A stretch of DNA of 64,000 nucleotides, taken from Neptunicoccus sediminis (lineage in GTDB: Bacteria > Pseudomonadota > Alphaproteobacteria > Rhodobacterales > Rhodobacteraceae). The position numbers and the translations under genes were made by a program. This document shows, in pieces, positions 3,655 to 7,702 of this stretch (its first letter is position 1; the number at the start of each line of letters is the position of its first letter). The DNA is taken from assembly GCF_001719615.1 (NCBI RefSeq), contig NZ_MDVX01000002.1, positions 372,001-436,000 on the forward strand, in the 5' to 3' direction. The notes beneath the pieces are model-generated. The model made no database searches and was not told the DNA's origin. It saw only the letters and a program-made list of their open reading frames with translations.

Positions 3655-3735
3655 TGAGGCTCAGGTCAGCAAGAAACACACACCTAATTTTAAAATTAAT
3701 CTTGCTACTTCTCTCCATATACGCCCCCTTAACTC
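3655..3735. other. Candidate origin of transfer (oriT) upstream of mobC
   Basis: About 150-230 bases before mobC there is a structured AT-rich stretch. A 7-bp inverted repeat, AGCAAGA (3668-3674) and TCTTGCT (3700-3706), encloses a perfect 14-bp palindrome, TAATTTTAAAATTA (3685-3698). Ten bases further on comes CATATACGCCCCCTTAAC (3716-3733), which loosely resembles the GCGCCCT nick regions of IncQ and Ti-type origins. Placement next to mobC and the relaxase gene fits an oriT. The nick-site match is imperfect, so this is an inference. Confidence 0.35.
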
Positions 3736-3886
3736 TGCCTAACCACCTGTTTTCCCAGAGACGTTGTTCTGGGGATAGCGAGCCATGTTTTTGCACTGCA
3801 AAAACGCTCGCCTTCCCTCGCGGCGCTCGAGTCGGATGCGGTGCGCGCTGTGCTTGCACCTGGTCTGCCAACTGGTGGGAATGGAT

Positions 3887-4255
3887 ATGGGAACCAAGGG
3901 CAAAGGCGGGAGGCCGCGTGTAAGGAACAAGCGGGATCATCAGATCACCGTGCGGTTGACCGAGCGCGAATATCGCAAGCTTCAAAAAGCGGCCTCAGGG
4001 TGCAGTGTCGCGGCTCTGGTGCGGGATCGGTTGCTTGGCCTACGCAAAGAGACTTCACCGCAGGTTCCTTTGATGAATCGGCAGGCGTGGATTGATCTCA
4101 GCCGGACGGCCTCGAACCTCAACCAGATGAGCTATCACCTGAACACCGGCGGTCGTCCCGAGGTCGACCGCATTCTGCCCCTTCTGTCTTTGTTGCAGCG
4201 GGATCTCGAACAGGTCCGCGCCAGGCTGATCGGGGGCGGTCATGGCCATCGGTAA
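3887..4255 (+). CDS. mobC: MobC-like relaxosome accessory protein
   Basis: This basic protein of about 122 residues should bind near the transfer origin and help the relaxase open the strands. The N-terminal half has a ribbon-helix-helix-like stretch (HQITVRLTEREYRKLQKAA). The C-terminal half carries the family's helical region with a conserved Asn-rich pattern (SRTASNLNQMSYHLNTGG). I prefer ATG 3887, which has GGTGGGA six bases upstream, over ATG 3881 and a longer ORF from 3785 whose extra residues look non-native. It overlaps the relaxase start by 14 bases, so the two are translated as a unit. Confidence 0.8.
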   Translation: MGTKGKGGRPRVRNKRDHQITVRLTEREYRKLQKAASGCSVAALVRDRLLGLRKETSPQVPLMNRQAWIDLSRTASNLNQMSYHLNTGGRPEVDRILPLLSLLQRDLEQVRARLIGGGHGHR

Positions 4256-5762
4256 CCTGACCAAAGGTGGAAGTGCAGCCGGACTGGTGGAATATCTGCT
4301 GGCAGAACACGACCACAAAGGCGAGGTCCGGCACCGCGCTGATATTGTCGGGGGAACGCTCGGCTTTGAAGAGGACGCCGCCAAGACCCACCTGGACGCT
4401 TTCAAGACCCTGCGCCCCAGCCTGAACCGGAACATGGTCCATCTGTCAATCTCTCTGACGCAAGAGGATCGGGAACTCAGTGACCAAGAATGGGCACAGA
4501 TTGGCGACCTCTGGGCCGAACGGATGGGCTTTGAAGGCTATATGACCGTCTGCCACGGGGATCACATCCACATCGCAGCCAGCCGCATTCGGCTCGACGG
4601 CAGTGTGGTCAGCGACTCCCATGATTACCGCCGCAGCGAAGCCGTCATCCGTGAGATTGAAGAGCGCTTTGATCTGGTCCGCGTGGAACCGTCCCATCTG
4701 CTGGATCCGAACAAGGCGCGGGATCATATCGCAGCACCGAAACGCGGTGAGTTCGAGATGGCCCATCGGGGTGTGATCTCCACCAAGGCCCAGTTGCAAA
4801 GTCTGCTGAAGGATCTCACCTCTGCACCGATCACCGCCACCGACTTCGTAGAAGCGTTAGAGGCCTGCGGCGTGGATGTACGCCCGAATGTCTCCGAGAC
4901 GACCGGCAGGCTGTCCGGCTTCTCCTTTGGCCTTGAGGGGCATCACATATCCGCCTCCAAGCTCGGCCGCAGTTTCACCTTAAAGAATTTAACAGAAAGA
5001 GGATTTTCCTATGAGCCAGACAGAGACTTTCCGGCAGTTGTCGCAGCAAAAGAGCGCAGCCTTGGCCGCGCCACTACAGGAGGCATTAGCACAGACCCGC
5101 GCATCGAACACACAGACGCAGGCGCGGATCGCCGAGATGCCGGCGCTGATGGAGCGCGCGTTGCACCCGACATTCAAGTCACTGCATCGGGTAGAGAAGA
5201 CCTTCCCAACACAAAGGGAGAGCGCGGACCGGATCAGGCAGGACTTAAAAGCACTGGCGAACCGCCAATCGGAAACACAAAAACAGCAGAAATCCCTGGG
5301 CAGCCTGATCAACAAACGGGCAAAGGAAATGCAATCGGCTCAGCGCAGGCTGCTGATAGTGCAGATCGCCCTCGGGATACCCCAGCTGGGGATGCTGGGC
5401 ACGCTCATAGCGTTCTGGATTGGAGCTTTCTAGACGGGGATGGCTGGGAGGCCTTGTTCCGGTTCTTCAAGAACTGGAGCCGCAGCATCAAGGCCTTACT
5501 GGGACGCCCGCAGAAACCGCTCCCTGTTCCGCCACCCCTGACGCCTGCAAAGAGGTCTCAGTGGACAACACAAGGCGCACCTGACCATCGAAAACGCTCA
5601 GATGGCAGAACGGACCAAGAGTTCGACCTGCCTGCGCAGGAAGCACCCTCCGCTTATGAAGTTGACGAAGGAGAGGTGATCGACGAGTCGGAAGTTCTTT
5701 TCGAGCCGGAAGAGCCAATGCCCGACGATGAAAATGAAACAGGGCCCGCGTTCGGGCCCTGA
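4242..5762 (+). CDS. Relaxase / mobilization nuclease (MobA/VirD2 family)
   Basis: This relaxase of 506 residues is expected to nick the element's oriT, stay covalently bound to the 5' end and lead the strand into a helper conjugation pore. Tyr18 in GLVEYLLAEH is the likely nucleophile. His67 (NMVHLSISL) and the His triad motif CHGDHIHIAASRI (His105, 108, 110) match the metal-binding site of the Relaxase Pfam family. The catalytic domain covers about residues 1-250. Residues about 255-390 are a low-complexity Asp/Gly/Pro/Thr-rich linker, exactly where a second gene runs in another frame. The C-terminus is acidic. A 9-bp perfect hairpin overlaps its stop codon. Confidence 0.85.
   Translation: MAIGNLTKGGSAAGLVEYLLAEHDHKGEVRHRADIVGGTLGFEEDAAKTHLDAFKTLRPSLNRNMVHLSISLTQEDRELSDQEWAQIGDLWAERMGFEGYMTVCHGDHIHIAASRIRLDGSVVSDSHDYRRSEAVIREIEERFDLVRVEPSHLLDPNKARDHIAAPKRGEFEMAHRGVISTKAQLQSLLKDLTSAPITATDFVEALEACGVDVRPNVSETTGRLSGFSFGLEGHHISASKLGRSFTLKNLTERGFSYEPDRDFPAVVAAKERSLGRATTGGISTDPRIEHTDAGADRRDAGADGARVAPDIQVTASGREDLPNTKGERGPDQAGLKSTGEPPIGNTKTAEIPGQPDQQTGKGNAIGSAQAADSADRPRDTPAGDAGHAHSVLDWSFLDGDGWEALFRFFKNWSRSIKALLGRPQKPLPVPPPLTPAKRSQWTTQGAPDHRKRSDGRTDQEFDLPAQEAPSAYEVDEGEVIDESEVLFEPEEPMPDDENETGPAFGP
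5011..5433 (+). CDS. Nested MobB-like membrane-anchored mobilization protein in the +1 frame of the relaxase gene
   Basis: This 140-residue ORF lies wholly inside the relaxase gene in another frame. ATG 5011 has a purine-rich AGAAAGAGGA about 8 bases upstream. The product is Gln/Ala-rich and helical, probably a coiled coil over residues 1-110, and ends in a basic turn and one membrane helix (LLIVQIALGIPQLGMLGTLIAFW). Over the same DNA the relaxase frame is a featureless linker, which suggests the nested frame is the constrained one. RSF1010 mobB is likewise encoded out of frame inside the relaxase gene mobA and has a membrane segment that aids transfer. Similar architecture makes an analogous role likely, though I see no sequence identity I can vouch for. 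Confidence 0.7.
   Translation: MSQTETFRQLSQQKSAALAAPLQEALAQTRASNTQTQARIAEMPALMERALHPTFKSLHRVEKTFPTQRESADRIRQDLKALANRQSETQKQQKSLGSLINKRAKEMQSAQRRLLIVQIALGIPQLGMLGTLIAFWIGAF
5740..5761 (+). terminator. Hairpin at the relaxase stop codon
   Basis: A perfect 9-bp stem, CAGGGCCCG (5740-5748) and CGGGCCCTG (5753-5761), has a CGTT loop. The 3' arm ends on the first two bases of the relaxase TGA stop. No T-tract follows, so it may be a weak or factor-dependent terminator, or an mRNA-stabilising hairpin between the convergent relaxase and AlpA genes. Confidence 0.5.
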
Positions 5763-5820
5763 AACTAAAGTGTATAGACTTGCTGGTTGGGTACCTGCGG
5801 TTCAACCGAACTACACGCCG

Positions 5821-6003
5821 TCAGACGTCCTCTCTCGTGTCCAGCCAGCGCTGCAGGTCACTCTGCCGCCAACCCACAAGGCGGGCGGTCAGTTTGACCT
5901 GAGAAGGAAACTCCCCGCTCTGTATCCGGCGGTAAATCGTAGACCGGCTCAAACCCGTCAGGTGCATCACTTCCTTCTGCCTCAAAATGCGATCAATCGT
6001 CAT
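5821..6003 (-). CDS. AlpA-family HTH regulator (excisionase-like)
   Basis: This 60-residue protein is almost entirely one MerR-like winged helix-turn-helix. It contains LRQKEVMHLTGLSRSTIYRRIQSGEFP, followed by the basic wing LVGWRQSDLQRWL, the hallmark of AlpA/phage-type regulators. Such proteins act as transcription activators of integrase genes or as recombination directionality factors. It faces the mob genes and lies in the same element as the integrase, so a role in excision control is likely. The short size is normal for the family. Confidence 0.85.
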   Translation of the reverse strand: MTIDRILRQKEVMHLTGLSRSTIYRRIQSGEFPSQVKLTARLVGWRQSDLQRWLDTREDV

Positions 6004-6285
6004 GTATTTTCCTTTCTAAACGATTTATCACAACCTAGCAGGACATGTTTAAAATCAGGTTCAAAGGTGGGGTGGAAATGCGGACAGGGTAAAATTTTTG
6101 GGCTGAAATTGGATTTTTGCTGCGCTCCATAACAACAGCAGCTTTGCGCAGGATGGCGACCTTTGCAAAGTCTGCGCTGTTTCCCGACAGCAGACGTTCA
6201 TGCCGATTGAGGCGAACGGCGTCTCAGCACGCGGAGGCGACCTTTATTCGGCGGGATCTGGCGTTGTTTGCATCCAAAAACAGCG

Positions 6286-7041
6286 CTAAGCTCGCCTATC
6301 TTCGGGCGATTCGAAATTGAGATTGTCCCAGAACTCAGCTGCGTTCCGACGCTGCATTTTTTCGAGGCCCTCCCAGTCGAAACTTGTGCCATTCAATGCA
6401 AGGTGAAGCTGATCAACTGCACATTTCGCGTGTTGGATCGCGCGATTTTCCATTCCAAGCATGAAGCTGACCTGTCTGCCATTTCGTGCGTTGTCCGAGA
6501 GGTTGTGAGCAATAAAATTATCTCTAAATGGTCGAAGTTGATCCTTGATGAGCAGACGTTCGGCACGATCTACAATCTTCTGCGCGACGCACACTCTGCG
6601 ATACACAAGCTGCTCTTCTTTCCGACCGCACTCCTCGTTGTAATTCGTCCAGTGATCCGCAAGCAACTTTCTTATCTCGGGGTCATCTTCCGAAGTCGAT
6701 CTGCGCGGCTCGCCCTGAGTTGCATGGTAAAGGTGTGTTTCGCGTGCGACTTTCCGAACTGTCTCCTTGTTTGAAATCGCGTTAATAACTGTATGCAGGC
6801 TGACACGATCGTTCGCTGCTTTGTCAAACAAGGAACACACACGGACAACTGAGAAATATAGCAAGGTATTTTGCAACTCTTTAAACGCATGCGCAGCATA
6901 GGAACGGGATATTTGACCAACAAGGCGCGACGAGTAGACTGCATGCCGCGTGTTCTCGTTTGCAGCTTTAGCCCCAATCACCAGATCAATCAGTTTGTTC
7001 GTGTATTGTTTCGCCCGTTCAATCTGATCGTCGTCCGCCAT
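6286..7041 (-). CDS. Uncharacterised protein with HEPN-like R-x5-H motif (AbiU2-like)
   Basis: This 251-residue, mainly alpha-helical soluble protein is not one I recognise with certainty. Its C-terminal third contains LRPFRDNFIAHNLSD. The Arg-x5-His in RDNFIAH (Arg173, His179) fits the R-x4-6-H RNase signature of HEPN domains, and the overall layout is reminiscent of AbiU2-type abortive-infection proteins. I chose the ATG at 7041 because GAGGAG lies 4-5 bases upstream; an in-frame ATG at 7053 lies within that Shine-Dalgarno. It sits just beyond the AlpA gene at the edge of the mobile region, with no antitoxin-like partner evident. Confidence 0.5.
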   Translation of the reverse strand: MADDDQIERAKQYTNKLIDLVIGAKAANENTRHAVYSSRLVGQISRSYAAHAFKELQNTLLYFSVVRVCSLFDKAANDRVSLHTVINAISNKETVRKVARETHLYHATQGEPRRSTSEDDPEIRKLLADHWTNYNEECGRKEEQLVYRRVCVAQKIVDRAERLLIKDQLRPFRDNFIAHNLSDNARNGRQVSFMLGMENRAIQHAKCAVDQLHLALNGTSFDWEGLEKMQRRNAAEFWDNLNFESPEDRRA

Positions 7042-7702
7042 CGCTCTCCTCATGCATCGCCATTCATGCCCTTGCGTCCATCCCCAGTTCAGAGTTTTGC
7101 CAAATCTAAATGGGATGAGCTACCATATCAGTATCGACGAAAGCACCCAATCGTTCCTACCACTTGAAAGCCTATAACTCGAAGGAATTTTCCACAATTG
7201 GATTTGACCGATCTGTCCGCACATACGCCACTCGACTGACCTTGCGCGACGGTCCGGTCTCACAAGCCCCAGAGCTTCGCGCCATGGATCGCTTTGGGCT
7301 GGAAGCAGTCATCCGGTGTGATCGCTCAAACCGATGGCGGGGCATTTTGCGCAAAAACCACACGCTGCATTGCCGCAAGTCAGCTTGGAGCCCGAAGTAA
7401 CCAATGCTGCGAATTGCATGCTGGCTGCTTTTCATTGGCATGCCGAAAATGTGTCAAAGTCAAAAACAGTTCGGCCACAGGATTGAGAAAATGACTATAG
7501 ACTTCTTGTTGGACGTCGGACGTTGACAAAAAACGACAGTGTCTGAAAAACATGCGGCTGCGCAATGAAACCGTGGCGTTCCGCATCCTCAAAATAACGC
7601 TTGCCCGTGGTCTGATGCAGGGAAAACCGCCAGAATGTGTTAAAATCCTCAGTAGCGAGGCAATCGTACATCCGAGAGCCGCGACAGCAGGAGGAAATAT
7701 AA
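7042..7702. other. Gene-poor interval
   Basis: About 660 bases without a convincing gene. Short overlapping frames exist on both strands, but none has a plausible ribosome-binding site together with recognisable protein sequence. The interval could hold the right junction of the mobile element; I found no direct repeat of the left region to prove it. The last 20 bases carry the AGGAGG ribosome site of the ABM gene. Confidence 0.5.

Follow-up and report, generated by a model that had tools for sequence, protein, structure and literature searches.

Accessory mobilization genes which overlap a MOBP relaxase gene are known from the ColE1-type plasmids, where they encode MbeB and MbeD, the ColE1 MbeD being an entry-exclusion or partner-selection protein. 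In RSF1010, mobB is located inside mobA/repB in another frame, as described in passages of PMC2200642, and an overlap of both mobB and repB with mobA is mentioned in a section of PMC5572225; overlapping mobA-mobB-mobC genes likewise appear, for the Paracoccus MOBP5 plasmids, in a portion of PMC3832669. The locus described here belongs to the window (the whole 64,000-nucleotide stretch of Neptunicoccus sediminis DNA that was analysed) and shares with the IncQ MobB (RSF1010/R1162 and pDN1; PF17511, Mobilization_B) the nesting in mobA in the +1 frame. In the IncQ1 plasmid pDN1, mobB starts 748 bases into mobA, while the nested gene of the window starts at 769, which corresponds to the IncQ MobB position near codon 245–257. 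The pDN1 MobB has a C-terminal hydrophobic segment (2.44), like the window protein, but its relaxase is typed as MOBQ, while the relaxase of the window has a MOBP-type domain and is without the primase part. The following features were recognised in the locus:

3720..6151 (approximate ends), plus strand: mobilization cassette (hairpin, mobC, mobA/mobB, AlpA-like), recurring in the genome
3778..3811, plus strand: inverted repeat GCGAGC..TTTTTGCA-C-TGCAAAAA..GCTCGC upstream of mobC, a candidate oriT hairpin
3881..4255 (approximate start), plus strand: mobC/NikA-like relaxosome protein (PF21983, 36.7 bits, cut-off 27)
4242..5762, plus strand: relaxase (mobA), 506 aa (PF03432, MOBP type by that family)
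4998..5003, plus strand: putative ribosome-binding site AGAGGA, with a 7-nt spacer to the ATG at 5011 and equivalents in the 12 compared rows
5011..5433, plus strand: predicted nested gene, mobB-like, 140 aa (140 codons plus TAG), in the +1 frame relative to the relaxase
5353..5409, plus strand: putative membrane (hydrophobic) segment of the nested protein, residues 115–133, by hydropathy
5821..6003, minus strand: small DNA-binding protein of the AlpA family, with which the repeated cassette ends (PF05930, 71.7 bits)

The relaxase matched PF03432 with 61 bits at a cut-off of 24.6, and its residues 104–111 (CHGDHIHI) form what we take to be the metal-binding histidine motif. A preliminary description of this DNA had proposed a 140-codon out-of-frame reading frame nested wholly in the relaxase gene, with its own ribosome site and one C-terminal membrane helix, over a stretch where the relaxase frame is a low-complexity linker. 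All these elements were recovered: the coordinates, length and frame proved exact (5011–5433, fully inside the 506-codon gene at 4242–5762), AGAGGA is present seven bases 5' of the ATG, hydropathy gave a single hydrophobic segment with the maximum at residues 115–133 (Kyte-Doolittle mean of 1.81 over 19 residues), and the relaxase frame over 5011–5433 was again read as a low-complexity linker. The start site is written in relaxase codons: AGAGGA comprises the codons of Arg253-Gly254 in the relaxase motif Arg253-Gly254-Phe-Ser-Tyr257-Glu (AGA GGA TTT TCC TAT GAG), and the nested ATG starts within the Tyr257 codon (TAT GAG).

The mobC-like protein scored 15.7 bits against PF05713, which is below the cut-off, and a start near 3881 is more likely for it than the beginning of the open frame at 3785, because 3785 falls inside the hairpin repeat. 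The hairpin sequence GCRAGCCATGTTTTTG was found in 11 of 17 sources, namely five copies of this genome, Oceaniovalibus and five Donghicola loci (one of them with a poorer second arm); the two Acidithiobacillus loci had only GCGAGCCATGTT, and L025–L028 gave no match. A nic-site search near mobC, with the C31 row disregarded, found no sequence common to the relatives. The AlpA-family protein has no claimed part in the nested-gene system. The cassette at 3720–6151 matched six other places in the genome (L032, L033, L034, L035, L036 and L038) with 85–92% identity, two of them in full length and four partially, and three of the cassette breaks showed the same insertion-sequence-like end. Just outside the cassette, on the minus strand at 6286–7053, an AbiU2-like HEPN protein is encoded (PF18734, 56.5 bits), possibly the product of an abortive-infection gene. 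The genome also contains a VirB4-like gene with a frame of 740 codons and, at the edge of a contig, a fragment of a coupling protein, and a transfer machine may therefore be present.

Two further full copies of the locus in the genome (contigs C3 and C44), which together with the window make three intact copies, had the nested 140-aa frame with 86–87% identity and without stops. The nested protein was present in only two of 394 family genomes, its own genome included. As a direct query it gave no match in plasmids or in the first genome scan, and neither did the nested proteins of two relatives (L045 and L052) in plasmids, which is why the relatives were found via the relaxase. Scanning of genomes with the relaxase alignment produced eight loci, one from Oceaniovalibus, five from two species of Donghicola and two from two species of Acidithiobacillus, all eight with a nested frame, a ribosome site and a nested start at relaxase codon 254–256 (in the numbering of that comparison); a viral-contig scan with the relaxase alignment gave no match. 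The frame, the ribosome site and the start were kept in 12 out of 12 rows compared, which included the three intact copies, Oceaniovalibus, Donghicola, Acidithiobacillus and Aestuarium, the nested start taken for the latter being the annotated one with a ribosome site and not the upstream in-frame ATG. The N-terminus M-S-[KQE]-x-E-x-[FL]-[RK] was common to the three copies and the eight scan loci, and the Aestuarium protein begins with MTKIQNLK. The hydrophobic segment was found in the window protein and in seven of the 11 other relatives: it was clear in Oceaniovalibus, Acidithiobacillus and Aestuarium, weak in a single Donghicola member and absent from four Donghicola nested frames of 89–93 aa.

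Altogether, 29 intact relaxases were examined. The nested frame was present in 18 of them (the window, C3, C44, L045–L052, L025, L024, L029, L030, L031, L062 and L053) and absent from 11 (L026–L028, L057–L061, L063, L014 and L015), the latter comprising three Sulfitobacter, four cyanobacterial, two actinobacterial and two distant relaxases from the window's family and class. The proportion of 18 out of 29 is not a frequency, since the plasmid records were hand-picked (15 from 60 listed of 444 hits, plus one from another search). The length threshold for a nested frame was 85 in the 12-row comparison and 60 and 40 in the others. The count does not include the relaxase fragment L013 or the broken copies of this genome, and L022, L023 and L044 (genome G095), identical in relaxase DNA to L047, L048 and L050 of Donghicola mangrovi, were counted once.

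The nested frame is under purifying selection beyond that acting on the host frame. The preliminary description had pointed to stops in homologues, or to a lack of depletion of changes, as signs against a nested gene; none of the 12 rows (the window, C3, C44, L045–L052 and L025) had a stop in the nested frame, and the changes altering the nested protein were depleted in all eight pairs tested (P 0.0001–0.016, random placement). In this placement test the relaxase effect and the type of base change were held fixed and the changes were placed at random, with unmatchable changes (at most one per test) skipped, using three pairs within this genome and five within Donghicola (L048–L049 was left out). 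The controls, which used the +1 frame of the upstream part and the +2 frame of the overlap, showed no depletion in 16 out of 16 tests (P 0.37–0.96). The tested pairs are kin from the same genome or genus, and the eight are therefore best read as two independent groups. In the pairs L049–L047 and L049–L046, three and one of the single changes, respectively, would make a nested stop when placed alone, while the real sequences are without a stop.

The positions of the differences were compared as well. In the pairwise comparison of the three intact copies, 37 of 47, 41 of 52 and 49 of 60 differences upstream of the overlap fell at relaxase third positions, against 11 of 40, 11 of 34 and 14 of 45 within the overlap, where the commonest position of difference was the nested third (16/40, 16/34 and 20/45). 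Against Oceaniovalibus, 78 of 176 overlap differences were at the nested third position, again the most variable one. In distant Donghicola comparisons the nested third position was not the most variable (for example, 55, 50 and 48 differences at positions 1, 2 and 3), and in the C3–C44 pair the C-terminal tail had a lower substitution density than the overlap (0.086 versus 0.106). The nested omega among the three intact copies was 0.53, 0.38 and 0.43, calculated from the relaxase-altering changes alone, since sites at which a change would be silent in both frames are nearly absent; the relaxase omega among nested-altering changes was 0.88, 0.56 and 0.72. Over the overlap, 25 of 28 ungapped pairs had a higher identity in the nested than in the relaxase frame, one pair had the same identity in both and two had a lower one in the nested frame, with values over the same bases of 45% versus 31% against Oceaniovalibus and 97% versus 88% between two Donghicola mangrovi copies. 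The earlier suggestion that the relaxase linker serves mainly to make room for reading of the second gene can be retained in part: the lower conservation of the relaxase frame in those 25 pairs and the short length (334–338 codons) of the three Sulfitobacter relaxases without a nested gene speak for it, while against it the relaxase frame is open throughout in all intact genes examined and SFLDGDGWEALFRFF, the relaxase stretch directly 3' of the overlap, shows conservation among the copies and, almost completely, in Oceaniovalibus.

The relaxase residues at the nested start were kept as well. Arg/Lys-Gly, and Tyr followed by a codon with initial G, were present in all 12 rows with the nested gene, and since the codons of this motif make the ribosome site and the start, one stretch serves both proteins. 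In seven relaxases without a nested gene whose codons were read, the start stretch was spelled differently. The four cyanobacterial sequences among them kept Arg-Gly-x-x-Tyr, written CGN GGN ... TAC, while two of the three Sulfitobacter relaxases were without the tyrosine there and one had TAC a codon later, the tyrosine being TAC in all five that have it.

A link to MobB came from plasmids. In plasmids of Serratia and Plesiomonas, a gene in the same position carries the annotation 'IncQ-type mobilization protein MobB', and these two proteins pass the cut-off of the Pfam Mobilization_B model (50 bits versus 27); for the same-position frames of the Klebsiella IncQ2 and Komagataeibacter plasmids, the annotation is 'hypothetical protein'. 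The MOBP-like relaxases of all four groups have the nested start at an offset of 736–763 bases and a nested start motif M[ST]K.ET.R, and they share with the window the hydrophobic segment and a mobilization gene upstream. Unlike in the window, their relaxase frames have 719–760 codons and their nested proteins 161–227 aa, and a RepB-type primase gene is annotated further on in three of the four. The nested frames of Donghicola, Oceaniovalibus, Aestuarium and Acidithiobacillus are direct relatives with the same start site and a similar N-terminus, and differ from the window in that four Donghicola members are short and without the hydrophobic segment and the Acidithiobacillus relaxase frames have 789–805 codons. 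The analogy with RSF1010 mobB drawn in the preliminary description was supported by same-position annotated MobB genes in related relaxases, and the precedent is wider, including IncQ2-like and other MOBP plasmids.

The window protein itself did not match any Pfam MobB model, PF17511 included, with E up to 1, and PF17511 was absent among the 25 of 51 families listed for the 11 members of set A4. NCBIfam was uninformative, because it gave no MobB model even for annotated MobB proteins. Weak matches of the nested protein to MotA_ExbB, ClpV1, SMC, Rad50 and others were rejected as below the cut-off. In a profile comparison (hhalign), the window's group matched the IncQ-like group with E 1.8e-7 and probability 93.7, the alignment being limited to the N-terminal 63 columns and the MobB-side profile having two rows out of four that themselves reach PF17511; a repeat gave E 4.6e-8, compared to 0.032 for the reversed profile and 0.30–0.99 for 20 column shuffles. 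The same-position annotation in the relatives and the N-terminal profile link together argue for the nested gene of the window being a diverged mobB, the tie to MobB resting on the N-terminal profile, position and architecture. The window protein was without a match to models of the ColE1 MbeB/MbeD or Paracoccus MOBP5 kind. The overlapping-gene arrangement is known; the window's sequence branch appears not to have been recognised before, and the titles and abstract openings listed in searches of the open-licence literature (two of the lists covering 20 of 27 and 20 of 183 entries) contained nothing pointing to this branch or to a start site built from a relaxase motif.

The open length by itself was weak evidence, being within chance for the three intact copies (P 0.10–0.18). 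In 5000 synonymous shuffles with the relaxase protein and codon usage fixed, the nested codons were stop-free in 9.8% (window), 18.4% (C3) and 16.3% (C44), and an equally long +1 segment anywhere in the gene occurred in 25, 36 and 44% of the synonymous shuffles and in 19–23% of codon permutations. The absence of stops between the three copies was not significant either (1.1–2.0 expected per pair, P of none 0.11–0.31). The ORF-length statistics were dropped as evidence, the three intact copies being not separable from chance. Such shuffles favor a by-product, i.e., a low-complexity relaxase linker that is merely open in +1 and codes for nothing, but this is largely refuted and in our opinion very improbable in view of the depletion of nested-altering changes with matched controls, the conservation of the start, ribosome site and N-terminus from Rhodobacterales to Acidithiobacillus and the annotation of same-position genes in plasmids. 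It is because of this comparative evidence, and not because of its length, that the nested frame goes far beyond chance. The conserved relaxase third positions in the overlap might also be expected from a nucleic-acid element, such as an RNA structure or a recombination or replication site, with the bases and not a nested protein being conserved; the depletion, however, follows the effect on the nested codons, and the nested third position is the most variable one in the three intact copies and against Oceaniovalibus, which leaves such an element hardly credible.

A real nested gene might also have another job than MobB, for example entry exclusion or partner selection like the ColE1 MbeD, or regulation of the relaxase. 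Only over the N-terminal 63 columns does the protein resemble annotated MobB, four relatives are without the hydrophobic segment, one relative (L025) gave a match to MbeD models, albeit far below the cut-off (E about 0.7), and a MobB-like function of the nested protein would be assigned by analogy. We consider another job unlikely, since the position and architecture are those of MobB and the window protein had no match to the MbeB/MbeD models with E up to 1. The nested frame is, with good probability, a real protein-coding gene representing a diverged mobB, and its product is most likely a small membrane-anchored mobilization helper.

From these features we infer its translation, topology, contact with the relaxase and effect on transfer. 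Ribosomes would enter the relaxase mRNA at the nested gene's own ribosome site and produce a small inner-membrane protein with one C-terminal membrane segment and a probably cytoplasmic N-terminal part. Most likely, this protein would bind the MobA relaxosome or position it at the membrane, perhaps as a tether, and would thereby make mobilization by a type IV secretion system provided in trans more efficient. The nesting would couple the supply of MobB to the relaxase transcript.

Gene tables, although incomplete, suggest that one gene of the pair is often missed in annotation: the nested gene but no relaxase is given for Serratia, Plesiomonas and Aestuarium, and the relaxase but no nested frame for Pseudomonas (L062). 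The latter record, plasmid p2 of Pseudomonas aeruginosa, has, from relaxase codon 249 onward, a mobB-like frame of 145 aa in which the hydrophobic segment is strong. Three plasmids (L024, L025 and L029), for which the incomplete tables give the nested gene but no relaxase, are classified in PLSDB as 'non-mobilizable', yet a relaxase frame with a nested mobB is present in them.

As to the origin of mobB, a tentative possibility, which we hold to be less likely than not, is overprinting in proteobacterial relaxases, with the old Arg/Lys-Gly-x-x-Tyr motif, whose codons can be written as a ribosome site (AGA GGA) and, by TAT before a G, as an ATG, as a ready-made start for a new +1-frame gene, after which the linker would have grown and lost constraint in making room for it. 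The motif would then be older than the nested gene, and under overprinting the cyanobacterial plasmid relaxases, with CGN GGN ... TAC and without a nested frame, would represent the prior state. The locus appears to add an unrecognised branch of a conserved overlapping-gene pair, present in bacteria of the family of Donghicola, and, since the start-forming motif is common to relaxases that contain the nested gene and those that do not, the origin of mobB becomes testable.
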